Source: Caulobacter sp. FWC26
GTDB taxonomy: Bacteria; Pseudomonadota; Alphaproteobacteria; Caulobacterales; Caulobacteraceae
NCBI RefSeq assembly: GCF_002742645.2
Contig: NZ_CP033875.1
Coordinates: forward strand, 3,326,001-3,390,000
Reading direction: 5' to 3'
DNA length: 64,000 bases
A program made the position numbers and the translations under genes. The notes beneath the pieces are model-generated. The model did no database searches. It was not told the DNA's origin and was given only the letters and a program-made list of their open reading frames with translations. The first letter of the stretch is position 1, and each line of letters opens with the position of its first letter. Of this stretch, positions 40,311-55,206 are shown one piece after another.

Positions 40311-41201
40311 ATGGCCGCCAACTACCAGCACCTGCGCACCTTTCACGCGATTGCGCTCGAAGGCAGCGTAACCCGCGCCGCGCGCCGGCTGAACGTCGCC
40401 CAGCCCACGCTTTCGCAACAACTGAAGGCGCTCGAGGAGCGCCACGGCGTCACACTGTTCGAGAGCCGCCGCGCGCCGCTCAGGCTGACCGAAGCGGGAC
40501 GCGAGCTGTTCGCCCTGACCGAGCGCCTGTTCGCTGCGGCCGCGGATGTCGACGACATGCTGGGCGAAGCGGTCGGCGTGCGCGGCGGCGTGCTGCGGAT
40601 CGGCGGCGACAGCCCGCCCCAGGTGGCGCGCCTGGTGGCGGCCTTTCGCGCGCAACATCCGGGGGCGCGGGTGCAGGTGCGGATGGGCAATGCGCGGGAG
40701 ACCATGCGCTGGCTGGGCGCGGCCGAGATCGACGCCGCCATCGCCAGCGACCCGCCGGCGGACGGCCAGTTCACCTACGACCCTCTCTACACGGACAGCC
40801 TGAGCGTCGCCCTGCCGATCGGCCATCCCCTGGCCGCCCTGGACGCCACCCCCATCGAGCGGCTCGCCGCCGAGACCCTGCTGCTCCGCGAGCCCACCTC
40901 CAAGACCCGCGCCTTCACCGAACAGGCTCTGGGCGCGGCCGGGATCGAGGTGCGCGAGACCCTGGAGCTGCACTGCCGCGAAACGATCCGCGAGGCGGTG
41001 GCCCTGGGACTTGGGGTGAGCCTGTTCTGCTCGTCGGAATGTCCCCCAGACCCCCGCATCGCCTACCGCCCCCTCGCCAGCCCGATCCGCCAACACCCCC
41101 TGCGCGGCTACCTCGTCTGCCAACAAGACCGCCGCCGCAGCACGCTCATCCGCTCGCTCCGAGCGATCGCGAAGGCGTTGAGCGAGGCGTTGGAGGAATG
41201 A
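40311..41201 (+). CDS. LysR-family regulator of the phosphonate genes
   Basis: A 296-residue LysR protein. The N-terminal HTH (HLRTFHAIALEGSVTRAARRLNVAQPTLSQQLKALEERHG) is followed by a substrate-binding domain (about 90-290) with LRIGGDSPPQVARLV. It is divergent from the FAD oxidoreductase/phnX pair, the normal arrangement for a LysR activator. An aminoethylphosphonate-type inducer is inferred from context. Confidence 0.87.
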   Translation: MAANYQHLRTFHAIALEGSVTRAARRLNVAQPTLSQQLKALEERHGVTLFESRRAPLRLTEAGRELFALTERLFAAAADVDDMLGEAVGVRGGVLRIGGDSPPQVARLVAAFRAQHPGARVQVRMGNARETMRWLGAAEIDAAIASDPPADGQFTYDPLYTDSLSVALPIGHPLAALDATPIERLAAETLLLREPTSKTRAFTEQALGAAGIEVRETLELHCRETIREAVALGLGVSLFCSSECPPDPRIAYRPLASPIRQHPLRGYLVCQQDRRRSTLIRSLRAIAKALSEALEE

Positions 41202-41363
41202 TGATCGGGGTAGTAGTGGCGGTGAGAGAGTCCGCCAAACCAGTATTCCCATACCGCATCACAGCGTCCCACAAAGACCCACTATCACGTTGATTATAAT
41301 GGACTAATTTTCGCGCCTGTGTCACTCTGCCCCTCAGCTACCCACCCGATCCTGAGTACAAAA

Positions 41364-41481
41364 TGGGACCGAAAGTGGGACCCGAAGTGGGGCCGAAAAT
41401 GAGAGCCGGCGAATTTCGCCGGCACGACAGGCCGGGGCTGCCGGAAGTGGGACCGAGCGGCTTCTGCAAAGTGGGGCCGAA
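41364..41481 (+). repeat. Five short direct repeats upstream of the integrase
   Basis: Five copies of a GTGGGRCCGAA-type unit (one with an extra C, one starting TGGG) occur at 41364, 41375, 41387, 41447 and 41471, all in the same orientation. Between copies three and four is a perfect 8-base inverted repeat GCCGGCGA / TCGCCGGC (41405-41423). This pattern resembles integrase arm-type or regulator binding sites at one end of an integrated element. No tRNA gene was seen beside it. Confidence 0.6.
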
Positions 41482-41499
41482 CTAAGCTGGAGGCTTGGC

Positions 41500-42693
41500 A
41501 TGGGACGTTCACTTCACAAGCTGACCGCGATTCAAGCCGCGAAGCTCAACAAGCCAGGCCGCCATTCCGACGGCGGCGGCCTCTATTTGTCGATCGATGA
41601 AAGCGGGCGTCGGCGTTGGGTGTTCATGTACACGCGAGCCGGCAAGCGAGTTGAACTTGGGCTTGGAGGCCGGCGCGACTTTTCCCTGGCGGACGCGCGC
41701 GCGGAAGCGGCAACTTTACGTGCGATGCTGGCGTCGGGCGCCGACCCCAAGGTCGAGCGCGCTAGGGATGACAAAGTCCAGACCTTCGGCGCCTGCGCCG
41801 ACGCTTATGTCGAGGCCATGCAGCCTTCGTGGCGCAACGCCAAGCACGCCGCACAATGGAAGATGACGCTCACCAAGTACGCCGCGCCGATCCGCGAGCG
41901 CCCGGTCAACGACATCACCACTCAGGACGTTCTGGATGTCCTTCAACCGCTGTGGACACGCACGCCCGAGACGGCCGAGCGCCTACGGGGGCGGATAGAA
42001 AATGTCTTGGATGCGGCGAAGGCCAAAGGATTGCGCACTGGTGAGAACCCGGCGCGGTGGCGGGGCCATTTGAACCAACTCCTACCCAAACGGCAGCGCT
42101 TGAGGCGCGGGCACCATGCGGCATTGCCCTACGACCTCATGCCCGAGTTTATGGCCAATCTCCGCACGCGCAGTGCGGTTGCAGCTCGTGCCTTGGAGTT
42201 CTTGATTCTAACTGGCGCGAGATCGGGTGAAGTGCTGGGCGCGACTTGGGATGAGATCGATCTCCAAAAGGAGATCTGGACGGTGCCCGCCGATCGCATG
42301 AAGGCCGGCCGCGAACATCGCGTTCCCCTCTCAGGCCGCGCCATGAAAATCGTCGCCGAGCGACTTGAGGCTGGCTCGGTCGGTCATGTTTTCCGAGGCG
42401 CGCCATCGGCGTCGGCGTTGTCCTCCATGGCCATGGCGATGCTGCTGCGGAGAATGAAAAGCGACATCACCGTGCACGGCTTCCGGTCCACGTTCCGAGA
42501 TTGGGCCTCGGAAACGACGGGCTTCTCCCACGAGGTTTGCGAGATGGCCTTAGCCCATACAATCGCCAATAAGGCGGAGGCCGCCTATCGTCGCGGCGAC
42601 CTGTTCGACAAGCGCCGTAAGTTGATGGAAGCGTGGGCCGGATATTGTTCAGGTGGGACAAAGCAAAGAGTGGTCCCCTTGCTCCGAGCCTAA
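41500..42693 (+). CDS. Tyrosine-type integrase of a genomic island
   Basis: A 397-residue P4/DUF4102-type recombinase. The N-terminal arm-binding domain (LTAIQAAKLNKPGRHSDGGGLYLSI) is followed by a core-binding SAM-like domain (about 95-195) and the catalytic domain. Catalytic residues are complete: Arg241 (TGARSGEVLG), His326-x-x-Arg329, His353 and the nucleophile Tyr363. It marks the left part of the island. A C-terminal fragment of a close relative lies at 63353-63729. Confidence 0.92.
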   Translation: MGRSLHKLTAIQAAKLNKPGRHSDGGGLYLSIDESGRRRWVFMYTRAGKRVELGLGGRRDFSLADARAEAATLRAMLASGADPKVERARDDKVQTFGACADAYVEAMQPSWRNAKHAAQWKMTLTKYAAPIRERPVNDITTQDVLDVLQPLWTRTPETAERLRGRIENVLDAAKAKGLRTGENPARWRGHLNQLLPKRQRLRRGHHAALPYDLMPEFMANLRTRSAVAARALEFLILTGARSGEVLGATWDEIDLQKEIWTVPADRMKAGREHRVPLSGRAMKIVAERLEAGSVGHVFRGAPSASALSSMAMAMLLRRMKSDITVHGFRSTFRDWASETTGFSHEVCEMALAHTIANKAEAAYRRGDLFDKRRKLMEAWAGYCSGGTKQRVVPLLRA

Positions 42694-42881
42694 GAAATTT
42701 TTCCGGGGCAAATTTGCGTCAACAGGCGCCTTTGGCGTACCTCCAGAAACGAGACACACTGCTCTAGACCCGAATACGGTGCCACTCTGACTTGGGGCGT
42801 GCCAATATCGTAGGTGAAGATCGGTTCCTTGGCCGCCAGTTCGCTGACGACGCGCATCACCTGCTGCAGGTTATCAGCCAC
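42690..42881 (-). CDS. Small hypothetical protein
   Basis: A 63-residue ORF with a GTG start seven bases after the DUF3644 stop, on the same strand. It begins MADNLQQVMRVVSELAAKEPIFTYDIG and ends as it meets the integrase stop codon. The composition is protein-like but I recognise no family. It may be a real operon member or the remnant of a longer gene cut at the integrase border. Confidence 0.4.
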   Translation of the reverse strand: MADNLQQVMRVVSELAAKEPIFTYDIGTPQVRVAPYSGLEQCVSFLEVRQRRLLTQICPGKIS

Positions 42882-42888
42882 CTTGTAA

Positions 42889-43234
42889 CTAGGCTGCGGG
42901 GGCCTGTCGCCGATAAAGGTCCGGGTGCTGCTGGCACTCTTCCAGCACCCGGTTCACCCATGGCTCATACCAGCACCACGTATTCCCGACCGCCACAGCC
43001 CCATAGCCTTTGGCCGGGTCTTTCGCACTCAACCGCTTCCACAGTTTCGTGTGGCTATCCATGGTGAAACGGTTCCAGCCCTCAGCACGGACCTTCTTCA
43101 CCACTTCGCCTGGCAGGTACTTGCGCTTCTCGACTTCCTTCAGCGCCATTTGGAATTTGTCGTCGATTTCAGAGCCGGGCGGAACGATTTCAACGGCAAG
43201 GTCTGCGCCGGGGGCCCGGTTGGCCGTGCGGTGG
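42889..43234 (-). pseudogene. 3' part of DUF3644 gene, cut off by the IS3 insertion
   Basis: This is the C-terminal part of the gene whose 5' part is at 47058-48029. Read on the minus strand from 43230, the frame gives RTANRAPGADLAVEIVPPGS and continues without a stop to 42889 (113 residues). An ATG at 43149 opens an 86-residue ORF that might look like a separate gene. The 4-base target duplication GTGG (43231-43234) is the insertion scar. Joining the halves without the IS gives one 437-residue protein. The C-terminal part contains TKLWKRLSAKDPAKGYGAVAVGNTW and may bind nucleic acid; that is a guess. Confidence 0.8.
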
Positions 43235-43295
43235 TGACCTGCCCCTGATTTTTTCCTCCACGCGGAGCTAGAGTTCGGCCCTTGAGAGGACGGAC

Positions 43296-43508
43296 ATGAA
43301 GCGAGCGAGATTTACGGAAGAGCAGATCATCGGGATCCTGCGGGAGAACGAGGCTGGGGCGAAGGCGGGTGAGCTGGCCCGCAAGCACGGCGTGTCGGAA
43401 GGCACGATCTACGCCTGGAAGGCCAAGTTCGGCGGCATGAGCGTGTCGGAGGCCCAGCGGCTGAAGACGCTGGAGGACGAGAACCGGCGGCTCAAGTCGT
43501 TGCTGGCC
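43296..43508 (+). pseudogene. IS3 OrfA, 5' part
   Basis: The first 71 residues of the IS3 HTH protein (MKRARFTEEQIIGILRENEAG..., with a helix-turn-helix and the start of the leucine zipper) are intact. After LKSLLA the reading frame runs into IS21 sequence, so the track continues artificially to 43565. The missing end ([18 protein letters not shown]) is at 46058-46118. Confidence 0.88.
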
Positions 43509-43605
43509 TGTGTTCCGGCTTGCAAAACTAACCCCCTTCTCGGGGAGATAGGCGTCCAAAGTTGACCCCCTATCCTTGAGGCTTTGATGGCCAGATCGGC
43601 GGCTT

Positions 43606-45144
43606 GTGGAGCTGCGGATCGAGACAGGGATGTTGGTATTGGAGACGGTGGCGAAGATCCGGCGCGAGCATTTCGCGCGGGGTAAGGGCGTGAAGACGAT
43701 CGCGCGGGAGATGGGCCTGGCGCGCAACACGGTGCGCAAGGTCTTGAGATCGGGAGAGACCTCTCTGGTCTACGAGCGGCGCGAGCAGCCGCACCCCAAG
43801 CTTGGGACCTTCATCGAGCGCCTGGAGGGCATGTTGGAGGCCAATGCCTCGGGCCCTCGTAAAGACCGGCTGACGCTGACACGGATCGCCGACCTACTAA
43901 GTCGTGAGGGATACGACGGTAGCTATGATGCGGTTCGGCGCTACGCGAGCCGCTGGGCTGATCAGCGCCGGGGCGTCAGCTCGCCGGTCGAGGCCTTCGT
44001 GCCCCTGAGCTTCGCGCCGGGCGACGCCTACCAGTTCGACTGGAGCCACGACCAGGTGGAGATCGGCGGCACGCCGCTGACGGTGAAGGTGGCCCACCTG
44101 CGGCTCAGCCACAGCCGCCGCTTCTACATCCGGGCCTATCCGCGCGAGACCCAGGAGATGGTGTTCGACGCCCATGCCCGGGCCTTCGCGCTGTTTGGCG
44201 GTGTCACCCGGCGGGGCATCTACGACAACATGAAGACCGCCGTGGAGGCGGTGTTCGCCGGCAAGACCCGGCGCTTCAACCGGCGCTTCGAGCAGATGTG
44301 CTCCCACTACCTGATCGAGCCTGTGGCCTGCACCCCGGCCTCGGGCTGGGAGAAGGGCCAGGTGGAGAACCAGGTCGGCTACGCCCGCGACAACATCTTC
44401 AAGCCGCGCCCTCGGTTCAGGACCCTGGAGGAGCTGAACGGCTGGCTGGAAGCCGAGTGCGAGCGCCGGGCCCGCAACGACCGTCACCCCGAGTATCGCG
44501 ACCGCACAGTCCAGGAGGTGTTCGAGGCTGAGCGGCCGTTCCTGGCGCCGTTCGTAGGGCCCTTCGACGGCTTCCACCAGGTCGAGGCCGTCGCCCAGGC
44601 CACCTGCCTGATCAACTTCGACCGCAACCGCTACTCGGTGGAGGCCAGGGCGGCGCGCCGGGCGGTGCAGATCCGAGCCTATGCCGACCGGGTCATGGTC
44701 CTGTGCGACGGCGAGGTCGTGGCCGATCATCCCCGCGGCTTTGGGCGCGACCACACCGTCTATGACCCCTGGCACTATCTGCCTGTCCTGGCACGCAAGC
44801 CTGGGGCGCTGCGCAACGGCGCGCCGTTCCAGGACTGGTCTCTGCCGCCCGCCCTGACCCGGCTGCGCAAGCGACTGGGCTCGGGCGACGAGGCCGATCG
44901 GCGCTTCGTTCGGGTGCTGGCCAGCGTCCTCGACGACGGCCTGGACGCCGTGGACGACGCGGTCCGCGAGGCCCTCGACGCCGGCGCCGCCAGTGACGAG
45001 GTGATCCTCAACATCCTGGCCCGACGGCGCGAACCGCCCAGGCCCGAGGCGATCACCACGTCACAGGCCTTGGCCTTGCGTCATCCGCCGATCGCCGACT
45101 GCGCCCGCTACGACCTGCTGCGAGGTCCCCGTGCAGCGGCATGA
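43606..45144 (+). CDS. istA: IS21 transposase IstA
   Basis: A 512-residue DDE transposase with a GTG start; ATG 43630 is the alternative. An N-terminal HTH ([28 protein letters not shown]) is followed by the catalytic Asp145 (YQFDWSHD), Asp207 (IYDNMK) and Glu254 ([11 protein letters not shown]). The gene appears intact and overlaps istB by 14 bases. Confidence 0.93.
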
Positions 45145-45859
45145 GATGATCGAGGCCCTGGGTCAGCTGGGCCTGAAGGGCATGGCCGCCGCGTTCGACG
45201 ACGCGGTGACCACGGGCCTGCAGCGCAACCGCACCGCCTTGGAGATGCTGGCCGACCTGCTCAAGGCCGAGACCGCGCACCGCCAGGCCGCCTCCATCCG
45301 CTACCGGATCACCGCCGCCAAGCTGCCGGCGATGAAGGATCTGGCGCGCTTCACCTTCGACGGCTCGCCGATCAATGAGGGCCTGGTCCGCGCCCTGCAC
45401 AGCGGCTCGTTCCTGGCCGATCACCGCAACATCGTCCTGGTCGGCGGCACGGGCACCGGCAAGACCCACCTGGCCATCGCCATCACCGCCAACGTCGTGC
45501 GGGCCGGCGCCCGTGGCCGCTACTTCAACACCGTCGATCTGGTGAACCGCCTTGAGGACGAGGCCCGGCGCGGCAAGACCGGCGCCTTGGCCGCCCAGCT
45601 CTCACGTCTGGACGTCGTGGTGCTCGACGAGCTGGGCTACCTGCCGTTCGCCCAGTCCGGCGGCCAGCGCCTGTTCCACCTGATCAGCAAGCTCTACGAG
45701 CGCACCTCGGTGATCATCACCACCAACCTGACCTTCGGGGAGTGGCCCACCGTCTTCGGCGACGCCAAGATGACCACGGCGCTGCTCGACCGCCTGACTC
45801 ATCACTGCGACATCGTCGAGACCGGCAATGACAGCTGGCGGCTCAGGAACCGCGCCTGA
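45131..45859 (+). CDS. istB: IS21 helper ATPase IstB
   Basis: A 242-residue AAA+ ATPase that assists IstA in target selection. Walker A is GGTGTGKT (105-112), Walker B is [10 protein letters not shown] near 162, and sensor ITTNLTF follows. It overlaps istA, as in other IS21 elements. Intact. Confidence 0.93.
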
Positions 45860-46057
45860 CCGGCGCGCCCAGCGTCATCCACAACTTGTTCAACCTCCCC
45901 CAGACCCCCTCCGGGCAGCTGAAAGATCAGTGGCTCACTAGGCGGCGACGCGCTGCGCTAGCTGACCGCTACGCGCCTCGCCGCCGGTCCGGGAACAGAG
46001 CGTAGAGGGGTCAACTTTGGACGCATATTGGGGGTCAGCTTTGGACGCCGTTTGACA

Positions 46058-46121
46058 TGCTGGCCGACGCGATGCTCGACAAGGCGGCGTTGAACGAGCT
46101 GCTCTCAAAAAAATGGTAGGG
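46058..46121 (+). pseudogene. IS3 OrfA, 3' part with frameshift signal
   Basis: Continues OrfA as [18 protein letters not shown] and a TAG stop at 46117-46119. The A7 run at 46107-46113 just before orfB is the usual slippery site for the -1 frameshift that makes the OrfAB fusion transposase. Confidence 0.75.
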
Positions 46122-47039
46122 CCCGCCGCCATGCGCGAAGGCGTCGCTCATCTGCGGACGGTGTTCGAGATCAGCGAGCGGCGGGCCTGCTCCATCGTCA
46201 AGGCGGACCGCAAGATGGTGCGCTACCGATCGCGCCGCCCGCCGGATACCGAGCTTCGCGAGCGTCTGCGCGGCCTGGCCGCCGAGCGCCGGCGGTTCGG
46301 CTATCGACGGCTGTTCGTCCTGCTGCGTCGGGAGGGCGAGCTTTCCGGCAAGAACCGCATTTACCGGCTCTACCGCGAGGAGGGCCTGACGGTGCGCAAG
46401 CGTCGGGCTCGCCGCCGCGCCATCGGCACACGGGCGCCGATCCTGGTGGAAGCCAAGGCCAACGCCCGCTGGTCGCTGGACTTCGTGCACGATCAGTTCG
46501 CGGGCGGGCGCCGGTTCAGGGTTCTCAATGTGGTCGACGACGTCACCCGGGAATGTCTGGCGGCGATCCCTGACACTTCGATCTCGGGCCGGCGCGTGGC
46601 GCGGGAGCTGTCGTCGCTGATCGCTCGACGCGGCCGGCCCGGGATGATCGTCAGCGACAACGGCACGGAGTTCACCTCGACGGCCATTCTGGCCTGGGCG
46701 GAGGATCATCGCGTCGCCTGGCATTATATCGCGCCGGGCAAGCCCACTCAGAACGGCTTCGTGGAGAGTTTCAACGGCCGGATGCGCGATGAACTGCTCA
46801 ACGAGAGCCTGTTCTTCAATCTCGACCACGCCCGCCAGAAGCTCGCCGCCTGGGCCGAAGACTACAACACCCGCCGGCCGCACTCGTCGATCGGCTACCA
46901 GACCCCGGCGGCCTATGCCGCGCTCCTGAACGCAACTGGCCGACCCGCTGCGCAATGTGGAAGCTCCACGGCTCGGCCTGTTGCTACAACCGCGCCATCG
47001 GGCGTAACCAATGCCGAGACTCTGGTCCGCGCTGGATGA
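46113..47039 (+). CDS. IS3-family transposase OrfB
   Basis: A 308-residue DDE integrase-fold protein, normally made as an OrfAB fusion by frameshifting. Catalytic Asp123 (WSLDFVHD), Asp182 (SDNGTEFTS) and Glu218 (FVESFNGR) are present, with HTH_21 at the N-terminus ([16 protein letters not shown]). Because orfA is broken by IS21, the full transposase can no longer be made from this copy. Confidence 0.9.
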
Positions 47040-47057
47040 AAGATCAGAGGCAGGTCA

Positions 47058-48029
47058 GTGGACCATGAAGACCCGGTAGGCGAATCTCGGATCGGCTTGC
47101 TGTTCGAGCGTCAGGTTCTGCTCGAAGCCCTCCATGCGCGTGACGATGTGACCAGGCAGGCCGCTCGCCTTCTTGAGAAGCGCCCTCTGGTCTGGGCTGA
47201 AGGTGACGAACTGGAGGGCGATCGGTAGGCGACGCTCCAAGCCATACTGTGCGCCGAACTGCGATTTGATCGTGTCATTGAAGTTGATGCAGCAGGCCTG
47301 AAGCTTGGCGCTGACCGTGTCGTCGATCCGGCTGGTCGACCGATGCTCGATCTCATGCCGCAGTTCGAGAAGGAAGTTTAGATTGTCTGCCGCGCCGCGT
47401 TCGACTGGGCAGCGGTCGTGTTTGAGACATTGGGCGAGCTCCCAGTATTTGTCTGCCCCGCCGGGCGTCTTCATCACGACCTTCTCGCCGTTCTGGGTGC
47501 GTGTATGGCGATAGTCGATGCCCTCTCGTTTGAACCAAGCATGCAGCAGATAGGTCCAGGCGATCACCGCCGTCACGATGAACAGTTCGGCCCGAAAGGT
47601 GAGGCCTGCGCTATTGAACGTATGAACCGCCGAGATCATGGCCTCGCGCGCCTTGATCAACAGTTCGTCGCCTCGGATGCTCAGACCCGTTTCGGCATCG
47701 ATTTCAGGCCACGAAGCTATGAAGCCGTCCAACTCCTCGACGGTCGCGGCCCTGACAGCCGTGTGCTTCGACTTGGTTCTGATCTCTGCGATGGCCCGAT
47801 GGTTCACCGACCGGGTAGGTCTTGTGAAGTAGGCTAGGATGTCCTGATCGTTTGGCCATCGACCGTGATCAATCATGGCCTTGATCAGTGCGATCTCCCA
47901 GCGCTCCAGGGAATTGCCGCGCCGACGGACAGGTGTCTTTGGCTTTGCCGGTGCCGGTGCCGGAGCCGGTGCCGGCGCGGGAGGGGCTGGGACCGCTGGC
48001 GGCGCGTGACCGGCGAACGGCGTCTTCAT
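47058..48029 (-). pseudogene. 5' part of DUF3644 domain gene, disrupted by IS3
   Basis: 324 residues from ATG 48029, which overlaps the stop of the restriction-modification gene by four bases (ATGA). A Pro/Ala linker (about 10-35) is followed by RRRGNSLERWEIALIKAMI, probably an HTH-like segment (DQDILAYFTRPTRSVNHRAIAEI). Next is the DUF3644 core LLIKAREAMISAVHTFNSAGLTFRAELFIVTAVIAWTYLLHAWFK, then KYWELAQCL and NLNFLLELRHEIEHRS. The frame ends in a TGA supplied by the IS inverted repeat. The rest of the gene is at 42889-43230. DUF3644 proteins are often found in defence islands. Confidence 0.85.
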
Positions 48030-51000
48030 CCCGCGATCACCGCGTCGGGTTCGCCGGCCAACAGGGCGTTGATCCACGCGAGCGCGAGGTCGCGGCTGCG
48101 GTAGCGACCGCCCCATTTGGCTCTTTCCTCGCGCTCCACGATAGGGAATGTCGAGTAGATGTAGCTGATGTCGTCTCGGCTGCCGGCCGGGTCGGCGGGA
48201 TCGTAGACGCCGTAGAGGATAAAGTAGAGAGCATCCAGCTTCGCACGCAGGTTCAGGCGCCGGTCTTCGTCCCAGACGAACGGCGGCAGGACCTCGCCCT
48301 CCCCGTCCACGTGACCTAGGTCCTGAGCGAAAGGCGCTAGATCGTGAGCCGTGTAGCTCAGTTCGAGAACGGCCTCACGCACGATCTCGCGTGCGGTTTT
48401 AATCCCAATGGCGCGATCGTAGGCGGCGGGCGGGACAACGGGCAGCTGCTCGACGATATACCAGTTGAGGCTTGTCCCCTGAACCTTGGACCTTGCCACG
48501 TAGTCGAACACGACGGCGTCGAGATTAGCGAGGAGTAGAGCGGCGTCCGCAGAGGAGAACGCGCCATCTCGCGAAAGGATAAGTGGTGCCTTATTTCCGA
48601 AGCCGGACTTTGGCACCATAGCCGCGATCATGGTGCGAGCGTCGGTTGCTCGCGCTATATCACGGAACGCGATCACGGCCTCTTGACTAATAGATTTGTT
48701 AACCTCGTTCGCGGCCACCCAATACTGCGGCTCCGGCATGAAAGCCGGGTCCGCCTTCTGCTCGTTCGTGACTTCGCCGCTGAGCGCCGCGTTGTGGACG
48801 TTGGCAGCATTGACGGTGACGGATGCGGCCCGGTGGTCGAATTGATGGATCATTCGTCCGGCGTAAAGCGGCAGCCAGTCCCCGGACGCCGAACGGAACC
48901 GGTTGCCGCCGATGGGCCAGGCACCTTCGCGCTCTTCCAACTCCGCTCGCGTCCGAAAAAGGTGGCTGTCGTTGGTCATGTGGAACATGGTGGCGTAGCG
49001 AACAGGCCATGCCGCCACGGCCTCGGCACCCGATCGGTCCACCAGCACCGGAAGCCGCTGGTAGATGGCCGTGGTCAGCGCCATGTCGCGCCGCGACCGG
49101 AAGATGGGCGCAGTCCCGGTGTTGGGGTTCACGGCAGCAAAGTCGACAGCGGCTATCGGGAAGGCGCGGTCTTGGTTTCGCAGTTCATCCAGCGAATGGA
49201 GGTAGAAGGCACAGGTTGCGGCTTCGAACCTACGACCAGGACTGAAGGACAATACACAGAATTTGAAGCTGGCGTGAACGTCTGGGAAGAAAATCTTGCG
49301 GTTTTCAAAGTCGTAGAGCGCCTTCAGCCGCCCTTCAGTCGCCACGCCGCGAAAGAAGGCGCTCGCCGAGAGGTCGGAGGCTATTCCGCTAGGGGTAAGC
49401 AAGCCAACCATGCCGGCCGGTTTCACCAAAGCCTGCGCGCGCTCGACGAATAGGCTGTAGAGGTTGATGTCGCCCCGGCTGAGCAGAGGGTAGTGACCCG
49501 ACGCCCGCGCCATTCGAGCCGTATCCAGCGCCCGCGCCTCGGCCTTCTCGAAATCAGCGTGAAGTGGGTCGTCGGCCTTCTTAAGCGCGGCGATCATCTT
49601 TGTACGGTCCGAAGCTCACTGTGCCAGCGCAATCTCGGGTCTACGCGCCGCGAACCATTCGACCTGTTGCAGTTTGATCCGGTCCCAGGGCGGATTGCCG
49701 ACGACGGCGTCAAAACCACCGTGCCGCTCATGATCGTCCCAGTGGTCCCACACGCCGGGGAAGGCGATCTGCCAGTTCAGGAAACGCTCTTCAGCAATCA
49801 GTTCGCGAGCGCGGCGCCAGATGTTGGTAAAGGCCTCGAAATCTTCCTTCTTCGATCGCCGCCGCTCGGGCTCGCCACGACCGCGCGCTATGGCTAGAGC
49901 ATCGCCAAACTGGCCGTCCAGCCAAAGCCGAATTAGGCTCTTCTCAGCCCTGTTCAGATTCAGCCAATCCAGGGCGTGCATGAACCTGACGAAGCTATCT
50001 AATGGACCGACCTGGGCTTCCACGTCGGTCCACATGGCGGCGGATCGGTGCGCCTCGGCGATCTCAGCGTCGGTGGCCAACTCGATCGTCTTCATCGCCA
50101 GCGCCTGGCGCTGGGCGTTCTTAAGAGCTTCGTCGTAGAGCAGTGGAGCGCCGAAGGAGTGGGCTTTATCGATTGCATCGCGCACCCATAGACCAAACAA
50201 GCTGTCGCCAGCGTGCAAGTGGTGATCGATAAACGATAGGGGGGCACCGACGGTGAAGGTGTGAAGCCACAGGGCGACTTTCGCGAGTTCGACCGCCATA
50301 GGGTTCTTGTCGACGCCGTAAACGCAGCGCTTTAGCACCATGCGCCGAACGATGTGGCGGTCGTCTAACTGAGCCTCGTCGATCGCCCACCCGGCGGCCC
50401 TGGCGTTCTTAAGGATGGTGGCACGAATGTCGTCGATCTTTTCGGCCAAGGGCGAAACATAGCCGACCTCCGCGCCCAAGGCGGCGGCCTCGGCCATGGC
50501 GTCCAGGACGTGGTCGGCCAATGTGTCGACTAGGCTCACCAAGAAGTGCCCCGATCCCATCGCCGGATCGCAGACGCGCAACGACAAAATCGCCTCTGCG
50601 GCGTCGGCGTCTTTCAGCGCGCGGCGACGGACACGCTCATCATCGTTCTCCGACAAGCCGGCGAGGGCCGCATGGAACGCATTGCGGCGCTCGTGGACGA
50701 GCGGCTCCAACGTTTCGTCCAGGATCAGACCGACTAGTTCATCGGGCGTATAGTAGCTGCCCGAGTTCTTCCGGGCGAAAAGGTTAGGTCGAACGGTCAG
50801 GTGCCCCGCTTCCCCAACCAAACCTTCCCGAACGATCTCAAACTCCAGCAGCCGTTCATAGATCGAGCCCAACTGCTGGACTGACAGGTCGCGGTAGTTG
50901 ATGTACCGGCGTTGGCCGGTCGATCGCTCGAAGGACAGGGCGTCAAGGGCGGGCGCCATGACGCTGTCAGCGATCCGAGCGCCCGAAAGCAGGGTCGTGC

Positions 51001-52129
51001 CCGAAGTCGCGAACAAGCCGCCGTTGTAAGGCGGGATGCCGATCGACGAGTCACCTTTGTCGACGATACGAGACAGGTCGGAGATGTGCCCCCAGACCTT
51101 GGCGGCGGTCGATGAGAAAGTGTCGCCATTGGTGACTCGCTCGCCAATTTCGAGGCGAACCGGTCGGAGCGCGTAGTCGTCATACCGCTCGTCGTTGACA
51201 GGCAGTAGATCCCGGTCCTCGGCGTAAAGCAAGAAGAGCAACCTGTAGAGCAGGATCAGAGCTGCATCCCGCACGTCATCCAGGGACGCCTCTGGCGCGG
51301 ACTCTGCCAGTGCGCGGGCCAGGCTGGGAAAGACTTGGTCGAAGACCACCTGCGCGAGGCTGGCCGCGACCCTCTCTTCATAGAAGGCAGCCTCGGACTT
51401 GGCGCGCTCGTGGAACGTCTTTTGGTCGACCCCGGTCGGCAAGAATGCCTCGCGGCCGAACATGACTGCGAAGACGCGCAGCCAATGATCTTTGGCTTCG
51501 TCGTCGATAAGCAGATCGTCGCCAATAAGACCCAGCACGCGGCCGAGATCGATCTCAAGAAACTCCTCCGAGATCGACCGAGCACCGGCCCAGTAGAGCC
51601 TCCAGCGCGGCCCGTTGGTTAGGACACCCCAGCGCAACTTGCCGCTTGTCAGGTCGTCGATGCGCCGCAGGTAGCGCAACATCTGCGTCGACGGCGCAGT
51701 AGTCTCATTACGCCCCGACGCGCGGTCGAGGGGTCTTGCCCAACGCTTGCTCTCAACGACAGCGAGACCGTGATCGTAGCGCCGCCACTGCTCTGGCAAG
51801 GCGTTGGCGGCGGCCTTGGCGGCGGCATCCGCGAACAGCAGGCCGTCCGGTACGTCGTCGCGACCGCTGACTGTGAGGTTCTGTTGGCGCAGGGACTCCG
51901 ACCAGCCCAGCGCGGCCAGCACGGGCCAGATGAAGTCGTCTTCAGTCTGGCTCTCATTGGTCTTAGCACTCTGGGGAAAAGCTTTAGCGATCCGGTCCAA
52001 GTTGCCTCGGAGGGTCGTCACATCGACGGCCTGATACGCCGGCGACGACTTGATCGCCTCGACCAAGTAGTCCGTGCTAAAGAGACTTCCAGCGGTGAAA
52101 AGTCCAGAATCGACCAAGCGCGCACCCAT
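48026..52129 (-). pseudogene. Type IIG (Eco57I-like) restriction-modification gene with an in-frame TGA
   Basis: A single reading frame of 1368 codons, broken only by TGA at 49618-49616. The upstream part (837 residues, 49616-52129) carries a nuclease-like site (PDG at 94-96, ESK at 126-128) and methyltransferase motif I DPAMGSGHFL (521-530). It ends after motif IV NPPW (812-815). The downstream part (48026-49597) continues in the same frame with ASDRTKMIAAL, target-recognition sequence and a C-terminal conserved block, and would restart at ATG 49597. Related enzymes run through here with a sense codon. The gene is probably inactive unless TGA is read through or is a sequencing error. It forms an operon with the DUF3644 gene. 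Confidence 0.85.
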
Positions 52130-52221
52130 TTGCTCTATGGTTTAGAGGCGGAGGCGACGTTGGAAAAGCAACAACCGCAGCGCTCTGCTAAAGTCTCAAC
52201 AACTTGGCGCCACGAGGTTGG

Positions 52222-52348
52222 TTAGGCGGAAATGCCATCATCCTTGGCGGGACCTAGGCGGTATGCGGCTGGATCGGCGATCCAGCGATTGATCGCGGAC
52301 TCATGCCAGCCCGCACCGTGAGCGCTGATCGGGACCTGGCGAGGAAAA
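52222..52348 (-). pseudogene. AlpA-family regulator remnant, 5' end lost
   Basis: The minus strand encodes FPRQVPISAHGAGWHESAINRWIADPAAYR and stops at TAA 52224-52222. It is very similar to the intact AlpA gene at 63726-63926. The first half is replaced by the IS6 inverted repeat at 52349. AlpA-type proteins usually control integrase or excision genes of islands. Confidence 0.8.
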
Positions 52349-52359
52349 GGGTGCTGTCA

Positions 52360-53743
52360 TCTGTGGACGGCCCCTGATCTGCAAGAGGTAAGTTCGGGTT
52401 TGAAGGGGTGATCTGCGGGGTGCGGACATCTGTCCGGCCTGTTGGCGCGGTGTCGATGACCGCTGGCCCTGATGGAGTCCGCGGGTCGGGTCCCTAATCA
52501 GTCTATCGGGCTTGGAAGCTCCGCCAGCACCTCGGGTCAGCCCGCCTGCGGCCGCGTTCAGATCGTCACCGTCATTCCCATTCGTCCCTCTGCAGCTTGG
52601 GGCGACGGCTCCGTGGCCGCCGCGATCTCGGTCAGGCCATGGCAGGCGGCCTGTAAGCCTCTCCTCGGGTCATGACCGCCCAGGCGATGCGGGCGGTCTT
52701 GTTGGCCATGGCCACGGTGACCACACGGGCGGGGCGTCGTTCGAGCAGGGCGCGGGCCCAGTCGGCCGAGGCCAGGGACACGCCTGTTCGGATGCGCCGG
52801 ATGACCGAGGTCGCTCCGACCACCAGAAGCTTGCGCAGATAGCCGTCACCCATCTTGGAGATGCGACCTAGCCGATCCTTGCCGCCGGAGGAGTTCTGTC
52901 GGGGAACCAGGCCCAGAAAGGCGGCGAACTCCCGGCCGGATCGGAACAGGGAGGGATCGGTGACGCTGGCCGACAGGGCCGTGGCGCTGATGATCCCGAC
53001 GCCGGGGATGGTCGCCAGCCTCTGGCTGATCTGGTCCTGGCGATGCCAGGCCAGCGGCCGACGTTCGAGTTGATGAATCTGGACCGCCAGGGTCTGGAGT
53101 TGATCCGCCAGCATCACCAGGGTTGATCGCGCCAGGTCGGGCAGAACCTCATCGCCCGCCGCTCGCACCCGGTTGACCAACTCCGCGACCCGCCCAGCGC
53201 CTTGAGGCGCGATCAGCCCGAACTCGGCGCAGTGGCTGCGGATGGCGTTGATAAGCATGGTGCGCTGACGCACCAGCAGTTCCCGTGTCCGATGCAAGGT
53301 CAGTATCGCCTGGCGCTCCGCGCTCTTGACCGGCACGAACCGCATGGTCGGCCGCGTCACGGCTTCGCAGATCGCCTCGGCGTCGGCGGCGTCGTTCTTC
53401 TGTCGGCGGACATAGGGCTTCACATAGTTGGGCGGCATCAGCCGGACCTCATGACCCAAGGCCGCCAGTTCCCGGGCCCAGTTGTGCGCCGTCGCGCAGG
53501 CCTCCATCCCGATCTGGCAGGCCGGAAAGCTGTCGAAGAACTCCAACACCTCCGACCTGCGCAACTTCCTGCGCAAGGTGACGGTTCCAGCGTCATCGAC
53601 GCCGTGAACCTGAAACACGCTCTTGGCCAGATCCAGGCCGATTGTCATAGTCTTCATGGTGGATGGCTCCCGCCGCTGTGGCTGCTTCAACGACAACCAC
53701 TCTATGGCGCTCTCGACGCCGGACGCAGGGGCCGTCCACACCA
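52360..53743 (-). mobile_element. IS110/IS1111-family element
   Basis: Bounded by a 15-base subterminal inverted repeat TGTGGACGGCCCCTG (52362-52376) / CAGGGGCCGTCCACA (53726-53740). Subterminal repeats like this are seen in the IS1111 group. The exact ends are uncertain by a few bases because a shared TCA lies at both junctions. About 250 non-coding bases lie between its left end and the transposase stop. Confidence 0.8.
52632..53657 (-). CDS. IS110-family transposase
   Basis: A 341-residue transposase from ATG 53657. The N-terminal RuvC-like DEDD domain starts TIGLDLAKSVFQVHG (Asp9) and has KNDAADAEAICEAV. The C-terminal transposase_20 domain has LATIPGVGIISATAL and SGREFAAFLGLVPRQNSSGGKDRLGRISKMGDGYLR with its conserved serines. 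It appears intact. Confidence 0.92.
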   Translation of the reverse strand: MKTMTIGLDLAKSVFQVHGVDDAGTVTLRRKLRRSEVLEFFDSFPACQIGMEACATAHNWARELAALGHEVRLMPPNYVKPYVRRQKNDAADAEAICEAVTRPTMRFVPVKSAERQAILTLHRTRELLVRQRTMLINAIRSHCAEFGLIAPQGAGRVAELVNRVRAAGDEVLPDLARSTLVMLADQLQTLAVQIHQLERRPLAWHRQDQISQRLATIPGVGIISATALSASVTDPSLFRSGREFAAFLGLVPRQNSSGGKDRLGRISKMGDGYLRKLLVVGATSVIRRIRTGVSLASADWARALLERRPARVVTVAMANKTARIAWAVMTRGEAYRPPAMA

Positions 53744-53755
53744 TCAGTCTAACGC

Positions 53756-54106
53756 TAACCGGTCTCCGCATCATGGTGCGGCCAAGCCCGTTGGCGGAGA
53801 CTGAGTTTGAAACCGCTATCGTTTAAGCGCCACCGTTTTCCGGCCGACGTCATCAGATACGCCGTCTGGCTATATTTCCGATTTAGCTTGAGCCTCCGCG
53901 ACGTCGAAAGCCTCCTCGCCGAGCGCGGAATCGAGGTCAGCTACGAGACGATCCGGTGCTGGACCAAGAAGTTCGGCCCCGCCATCGCCAGGCGGTTGAA
54001 GAAACTTCGCCCCTCCCCTTCGCCCCGCTGGCATCTGGACGAAGTGGTCTGCCGGATCGGCGGACGGCACATGTACCTCTGGCGCGCGGTCGACGACGAA
54101 GGCGAG
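53756..54106 (+). repeat. 351-base direct repeat, copy 1 (IS6 5' part)
   Basis: Appears identical by eye to 62452-62802, in the same orientation and 8696 bases apart. It covers the IS6 left region and the first 100 codons of its transposase. Such direct repeats allow deletion or circularisation of the DNA between them. Confidence 0.85.
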
Positions 54107-54499
54107 GTTTTGGAGCTGCTGGTGCAGCGCCGCCGCGATACGAGGGCAGCTCGCAAATTCCTCGAACGACTACTGCGCCGCCAGCCGATCGAGCCCGAAA
54201 CCATCACGACGGACGGCCTGTCGTCCTACTCGGCGGCCCTGCGGGCGCTGGATTTGGAGCACCTTCATCGGCCAGGTCGGCTCCGGGAGAACAATCGTGC
54301 CGAGAACTCTCACCTGCCCGTCCGGCAACGGGAGCGAAGAATGCAAGGCTTAAAAAATCAGCCCTCAGCCCAGCGCTTCCTGTCCACCCACGCCGCCGTC
54401 TACAATACCTTCTCCGTTCAGCGACATCTGATCAGCCGCCCCAACCTTCGCCGCTTCCGCGCCGAGGCTCATGCCGCTTGGGCGAAGGCCACCGCCTGA
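53807..54499 (+). CDS. IS6-family transposase
   Basis: A 230-residue IS26-like DDE transposase. A short HTH part (SLSLRDVESLLAERGIEVSYETIRCW) precedes the catalytic Asp78 (WHLDEV), Asp136 (TTDGLSSY) and Glu167 (NNRAENSH). It looks complete and so could act on both IS6 copies in trans. Confidence 0.92.
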   Translation: MKPLSFKRHRFPADVIRYAVWLYFRFSLSLRDVESLLAERGIEVSYETIRCWTKKFGPAIARRLKKLRPSPSPRWHLDEVVCRIGGRHMYLWRAVDDEGEVLELLVQRRRDTRAARKFLERLLRRQPIEPETITTDGLSSYSAALRALDLEHLHRPGRLRENNRAENSHLPVRQRERRMQGLKNQPSAQRFLSTHAAVYNTFSVQRHLISRPNLRRFRAEAHAAWAKATA

Positions 54500-54693
54500 A
54501 ACGACTAAGTATTGGCTCGCTTCGACTTGTCGCGGTTAACCTGACAGCACCCCGTGCTCCTCGCCTCCGCTAGCTTGCCGCTTGTTCAGGCGCTGGCGCG
54601 CTTTCTTCCCTCCGTGCGGTCGATATCGAGCCGGGGGACATTTTTCTTACGGCATCGAAGCCCTGCTGCGTCCTACGATCAGGAGGCTTCAGC

Positions 54694-55206
54694 ATGCCAG
54701 CGTCGGCCATGAGAACACCGCTTGAGCAAGTCGTCATCGACTACTCGGGACCGCTCGCGCGCTTTTTCCAGCGACGCATCCGGGCCGGCCAGGAGGCGGA
54801 CGATCTCGTCCAGGAAGTGTTTGGGCGATTGGCCCGGCAAAACCTCTCAACGGTCGACAACCTCCACGGCTACATCTTCCAGATCGCCGCCAACGTTCTG
54901 CGCGATCAGGCGCGCCGGGCCAGCACCCGCGCCTTCATTGTCGCGCAGTCTGGTGATTTCGACGCCGAGGACCAGACAAGCTTCTCGCCAGAACGGGTGC
55001 TGCAAAGCCGCGAAACCCTGCAGAGCCTGGTTTCGGCGCTCTACGAACTGCCCCCCTCCGTTCGCAACGTTTTCAGCCAGTATCACTTCGACGGGGTCTC
55101 CCAAGTGGAGATCGCCCGGCGGATGGGCATGTCCTTGAGCACCGTCGAAAAGCAGATGGCCAAGGCCAACGCCCACCTCCTCAAGCGTCTGCGGAAGATC
55201 CTATGA
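54694..55206 (+). CDS. ECF sigma factor (FecI-like)
   Basis: A 170-residue RNA polymerase sigma factor. Region 2 is at about 20-75 (QEADDLVQEVFGRLARQN) and region 4 at about 110-165 (LPPSVRNVFSQYHFDGVSQVEIARRMGMSLSTVEKQMAKA). It is followed by FecR, with a four-base overlap, as in iron-citrate-type cell-surface signalling. It would drive the TonB receptor and its partners when the receptor is occupied. Confidence 0.9.
   Translation: MPASAMRTPLEQVVIDYSGPLARFFQRRIRAGQEADDLVQEVFGRLARQNLSTVDNLHGYIFQIAANVLRDQARRASTRAFIVAQSGDFDAEDQTSFSPERVLQSRETLQSLVSALYELPPSVRNVFSQYHFDGVSQVEIARRMGMSLSTVEKQMAKANAHLLKRLRKIL

Follow-up and report, generated by a model that had tools for sequence, protein, structure and literature searches.

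A DUF3644/HEPN gene split by nested insertion sequences beside an interrupted restriction-modification gene in Caulobacter sp. FWC26

In this study, we show how two minus-strand reading frames of Caulobacter sp. FWC26 are in fact one gene of the DUF3644 family, split by an insertion sequence (IS) of the IS3 family. Both frames lie within a window of 64,000 nucleotides, by which we mean the whole stretch of DNA that was analysed (contig NZ_CP033875.1, positions 3,326,001 to 3,390,000 of the forward strand; coordinates below are those of the window, and features are collected in Table 1). We consider it very probable that the split gene is what remains of half of a two-gene defence locus, which decayed through the insertion of the IS3-family element, the insertion of an IS21-family element into the latter, and an in-frame stop in the adjacent restriction gene. 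An earlier note on this DNA, made from its letters alone, had proposed the split gene; the IS21 element inside the IS3 element and the in-frame stop in the neighbouring restriction-modification gene were both absent from it.

Results

The split DUF3644 gene

On the minus strand, 324 codons run from 48029 to 47058, after which the frame is closed by a TGA at 47055-47057 that consists of the final three bases of the IS3-family element, as the earlier note had stated. The frame picks up again at 43230 with 113 codons and a stop, ending at 42889, and the sum of 437 codons given in the note is correct as well. Its central claim, that the open reading frames (ORFs) at 42889-43149 and 47055-48116 are halves of one gene, is borne out by a natural uninterrupted protein of 435 residues, P0001, which spans both halves, and by the PADLOC profile PDLC04948 (325 positions), which the two parts match in succession, over 13-215 and then over 218-321. 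The first part is 98-99% and the second part 99% identical to P0001, which crosses the junction as ...FMVH/RTANRAP... (the slash marking the junction) without a gap or extra residue, and which is two residues shorter than the joined frame, a difference that lies in a proline-alanine repeat close to the N-terminus. Furthermore, in DNA of Brevundimonas albigilva (record L010) the site is uninterrupted and holds one CCAC, the complement of GTGG, at the position of the duplication. The empty site with a single GTGG that the note had predicted thereby has an answer from sequence, albeit in a relative of about 95% identity and not in a strain of the same species.

The note had also proposed a comparison of the joined sequence with DUF3644 homologues. 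When this was done, full-length relatives were found to align across both parts. The best 80 of 112 records with relatives of the first part were fetched, and in 78 of these the second part follows in the same frame, at most 45 bases from the first. The exceptions are L038, with a partial second part 139 bases on and in another frame, and L025, which has no second part. Over P0001 residues 40-415, 76 of the 80 records are uninterrupted, the remaining four being L025, L038, L045 and L079.

The nested insertion sequences

That an IS3 element had inserted with duplication of GTGG holds as far as the family and the duplication are concerned, but the insertion is more complex than had been noted, with an IS21-family element nested in it. 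Genes split by an IS with a target duplication are a routine, textbook matter; for IS21 a target duplication of about 4-8 base pairs (bp) is expected, and for IS3 a short one. The outer element belongs to the IS3 family by its orfA/orfB with a DDE core, its terminal inverted repeats and its short target duplication, and the inner one to the IS21 family by IstA and IstB, its TG...CA ends and the length of its duplication. While both are thus like known IS3 and IS21 elements in transposase families, ends and duplication lengths, they differ by the nesting of IS21 within the orfA of IS3, and therefore the IS3 element is probably unable to make its own transposase. Once the IS21 element and one of the two 8-bp repeats that flank it are taken out, the IS3 element measures 1266 bp.

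The genome holds seven copies of the IS21 element that do not differ at any of the 2549 bases. Contig C3 carries six of them and C1 the seventh, and the set suggests a recent burst. A single place in the genome matches the IS3 element over its initial 276 bases, apart from one relative of 75% identity. Therefore, the IS3 element most likely inserted first, and the recently active IS21 landed in it later, although the pair may also have come in already nested. Among the other six IS21 copies (L085-L090), three carry exact duplications of 7, 8 and 9 bp and one a duplication matching at 7 of 8 positions; no target duplication was seen at L088 and L089, which could result from recombination between IS21 copies. 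Relatives of this IS21 element are also found on plasmids.

The DUF3644 protein

The first part of the gene scores 189.3 bits against Pfam PF12358 (DUF3644; cut-off 27.6), whereas the second part has no Pfam match at E-values (E) up to 0.001. Together with the match of both parts to PDLC04948, for which PADLOC sets no cut-off here, this places the gene in DUF3644 and in the PADLOC candidate PDC-S19, which P0001 matches with an E of 9.6e-112 over residues 119-425. The two window parts match the same profile in order, as P0001 does; the window copy differs in being split, and the N-terminal module lies outside the match to PDC-S19. In the literature searched, the name 'PDC-S19' was not found and 'DUF3644' was found only in a paper of 2013, which placed the family within HEPN (PMC3710099). 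As such, HEPN membership was already known, and DUF3644 is a catalogued defence candidate only (PADLOC).

Of 63 aligned rows, 62 extend over the position of an R-x4-H motif (R222 and H227 in P0001 numbering), and 61 of these carry it. The exception, a relative that is otherwise full-length (L028:7983-9239), has P where the motif has H (R-x4-P), possibly because its catalytic site is dead or the sequence is in error. The predicted fold is HEPN-like, and model residues 109-268 match HEPN structures, with HepT, Csm6 and LsoA among the rows; by sequence, no solved structure was matched in searches at E 1 and at E 0.001. The C-terminal module resembles, tentatively, a MerR-like winged helix in the model. 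Sequence and model together predict a HEPN-type ribonuclease (RNase), and the model suggests a layout for DUF3644 of an N-terminal helical module (about residues 41-104 of P0001), the HEPN core, a linker and the tentative winged helix. The motif and the predicted fold are shared with HEPN RNases such as HepT toxins, Csm6, LsoA and PrrC/RloC. However, PrrC and RloC join an ABC ATPase to HEPN, while the DUF3644 parts have no ABC ATPase match in Pfam at the threshold given above; likewise, no nucleotidyltransferase family was found among the window proteins scanned, DUF3644 tentatively having its C-terminal winged helix instead.

The frame left by the IS retains the complete HEPN core and DUF3644 domain. 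In the part that has been cut off, 12 positions are at least 90% conserved in the 63 rows, and because this part moreover follows in frame in the 78 records mentioned, it is probably under selection. In other genomes, seven loci (L097, L098, L111, L113, L114, L115 and L116) match only the N-terminal module (within P0001 7-122). Their open frames are 282-519 residues long and the HEPN part had no reported match there, and the module is perhaps common to other proteins.

The interrupted restriction-modification neighbour

The gene upstream of DUF3644 encodes a single-chain restriction-modification enzyme, and its stop overlaps the start of the DUF3644 gene as ATGA. An intact relative, P0121 (1367 amino acids, on eight public contigs), is collinear with both of its frames at 99.2% and 98.3% identity, with one residue in place of the TGA. 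In PADLOC, P0121 matches both DrmMI of DISARM (277.9 bits) and the type IIG enzymes (256.6 bits), from which the window copy differs by its in-frame stop. For the ten window proteins scanned, no match to other DISARM components (drmA/drmB/drmC) was among the 25 best PADLOC families listed per protein. All 12 relatives that were selected for alignment, out of 120 listed, share P94 D95, E126, K128, G525 S526 G527 and N812 P813 P814 W815 without variation. We take P-D...E-x-K to be nuclease-type residues and NPPW (with GSG) to be those of an adenine methyltransferase, and with this reading nuclease and methyltransferase motifs stand in one chain, as in type IIG enzymes, though interrupted in the window. 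Cut 23 codons after the NPPW motif, the restriction gene is most likely dead.

Distribution of the two genes

A relative of the restriction enzyme adjoins DUF3644 in five of the 80 records (L002, L004, L007, L008 and L010). In the other 75 no such relative was found, and 16 of the 80 have less than 4.2 kilobases (kb) before the match, which could hide one. The restriction gene of L010 is disrupted by a change of frame and a stop within it. That of L002, a Brevundimonas metagenome contig, consists of residues 2-143 and 1317-1367 (L002:7366-7914), with 144-1316 missing; in both, the adjoining DUF3644 gene is uninterrupted. L002 being a metagenome assembly, the lesion there needs checking. The restriction gene is therefore broken not only in the window, but in L010 and L002 too.

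In a survey of 385 genomes of the class, which scored a few first-look candidates per genome, DUF3644 matches were found in 17 (several of them weak or N-terminal only) and the restriction enzyme in 14 (E <= 1e-40). Both genes occur in two genomes, the window's own and G125, and in the latter they lie on separate contigs, for which reason an obligate pair was rejected. DUF3644 relatives occur on 28 plasmid records, 12 of which cover at least 80% of the protein, and two viral contigs carry relatives as well.

For the 75 loci without a relative of the restriction enzyme, crude ORF calls gave 68 upstream and 66 downstream neighbours, the downstream ones being scanned with PADLOC only. Counted among the first 25 families listed, the upstream neighbours match type I specificity subunits (3/68) and RmrA (2/68), and the downstream ones mad2 (4/66) and Lit (2/66), with single matches to Gabija and others. 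In Pfam, upstream neighbours include ordinary genes too, such as a BCCT transporter, a sulfatase and PhoX phosphatases. The genomic setting of DUF3644 elsewhere is thus mixed. DUF3644 and the restriction enzyme probably form a unit only loosely, and DUF3644 seems to be an independent gene because two relatives have it uninterrupted next to a restriction gene that is itself broken; the distribution points to a mobile gene, probably of defence.

Table 1. Coordinates of the features of the locus within the window
Feature	Position	Strand	Basis
DUF3644 gene, first 324 codons: N-terminal helical module followed by the whole HEPN/DUF3644 domain (predicted)	47058..48029	-	PF12358, PDC-S19, intact relative P0001
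DUF3644 gene, last 113 codons and stop: C-terminal module, tentatively winged helix	42889..43230	-	PDLC04948 218-321; 99% to P0001 322-435; model match
GTGG target-site duplication, left copy	43231..43234	.	single copy in L010
GTGG target-site duplication, right copy; its four bases double as the coding end of the first part	47058..47061	.	
IS3-family element, 3823 bp as found; terminal repeats 18/26 identical, ungapped	43235..47057	+	transposase families, ends
IS3 orfA start, broken by IS21	43296..43508	+	PF01527; IS21 start
IS3 orfB, DDE transposase	46113..47039	+	NF033516, rve
Nested IS21-family element, 2549 bp, TG...CA ends	43509..46057	+	IstA and IstB families
IstA transposase of IS21	43606..45144	+	NF033546
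IstB helper ATPase of IS21	45131..45859	+	NF038214
IS21 8-bp target-site duplication TGCTGGCC, left copy	43501..43508	.	
IS21 8-bp target-site duplication TGCTGGCC, right copy	46058..46065	.	
Gene of the single-chain restriction-modification enzyme, type IIG/DrmMI-like, in two frames (837 and 529 codons)	48026..52129	-	intact relative P0121
In-frame TGA interrupting the restriction-modification gene, 23 codons past the NPPW motif	49616..49618	-	
Tyrosine integrase beside the locus	41500..42693	+	PF22022, PF13356, PF00589

Discussion

The locus is a well-resolved, ordinary pseudogene, and what we offer is mainly a correction of annotation: two frames are one interrupted DUF3644 gene, and two frames upstream of it are one interrupted restriction gene. 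Novelty is limited to this instance in the window, the IS21 within the IS3, the break in the neighbouring gene and the predicted arrangement of modules. The locus makes a good example of the decay of a defence locus, and holds no surprise. We propose that the pair, a single-chain restriction-modification enzyme with a DUF3644/HEPN gene behind it, was probably acquired horizontally; that an IS3-family element would then have entered the DUF3644 gene and duplicated 4 bp, and an IS21-family element the IS3 element, duplicating 8 bp; and that an in-frame stop would have arisen in the restriction gene. In the intact protein, the HEPN core would probably cleave RNA on phage infection, with the end modules possibly serving recognition or sensing, positioning or regulation. 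The split gene likely no longer works.

What weighs against such a loss of function is that the truncated frame retains its entire HEPN core. The 324-residue product, with only the C-terminal module gone, might then be a working or altered RNase, as the first part spans the whole DUF3644 domain as well as the stretch of the model that matches HEPN, and the insertion falls after P0001 residue 322, within a stretch (318-336) where the predicted local distance difference test score (pLDDT) is below 50. We nevertheless regard this as very unlikely, given the retention of the C-terminal part in frame in nearly all relatives and its conserved positions; the stop in the upstream gene may, in addition, reduce expression by polarity. 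Alternatively, DUF3644 could be a latent RNase silenced by the restriction enzyme in the fashion of PrrC and type I enzymes, the two genes making up one two-step defence. The ATGA overlap and the five records in which the enzyme's relative adjoins DUF3644 speak for it, as does the description in PMC3710099 of HEPN genes, PrrC among them, in restriction operons. However, the partner that overlaps DUF3644 is a single-chain enzyme and not a type I (hsdMSR) system, the first part matches DUF3644 only and no ABC ATPase, and a relative of the enzyme was found in only five of the 80 records (some being too short before the match to show one), while two surveyed genomes alone have both genes, those of G125 lying apart. 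Moreover, L010 and L002, the latter with the reservation made above, are two natural cases which argue that DUF3644 needs no restriction enzyme to stay silent. As such, silencing of this kind appears unlikely. Also unlikely is a two-tier defence of Brevundimonas and relatives made up of the two genes, in which a HEPN RNase with a MerR-like winged helix backs up restriction, the restriction tier would be the more expendable, and the window's genome would have lost both tiers by independent lesions.

That the lesions are errors of assembly or base calling is highly improbable overall. The stop in the restriction gene is one codon and may be such an error, but for the insertion sequences an artefact is unlikely, given the exact duplications around both elements and a genome that is in three contigs and listed as 100% complete. 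Hardly any credence is left for two separate genes that merely flank an IS, even if 3.8 kb lie between the frames and the second has its own ATG at 43149; single natural proteins span both, one PADLOC profile covers them consecutively and the DNA of L010 is uninterrupted, and two unrelated genes were rejected on account of these intact spanning relatives and that site.

Surroundings of the locus

The 16S sequence of the host is 100% identical to that of G003, a genome of the same genus, and 95% identical to that of Brevundimonas lutea over 1398 of 1400 bases. Shorter 16S pieces match B. albigilva (97% over 402) and the genome of L026 (98% over 226), and the host would belong to the family Caulobacteraceae. 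Synteny with the closest match found in the same genus (G008, 93.5%) stops at 41194, and that with the more distant relatives G020 and G005 at 41170 and 41172; rightward, the window matched nothing in the 14 kb fetched. With an end of synteny seen on one side only, a clean two-ended island was rejected. In the window, ARAGORN found no transfer RNA and Rfam no family at gathering score, and of 50 families of direct repeats over 41100-54800, none of the 20 listed resembles an attachment site. A 63-residue frame at 42690-42881 was rejected as a third gene of the operon, its sole match in 80 loci being weak (E 0.39, L048). Upstream of the restriction gene, at 52632-54499, lie IS110-type and IS240-type transposase genes, and therefore transposase or integrase genes flank the two-gene locus on both sides. 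Upstream of the integrase, 41217-41490 is matched at 73% by another stretch of this genome (G000:C3:1546177-1546450), so that a second, related integrative element may exist.

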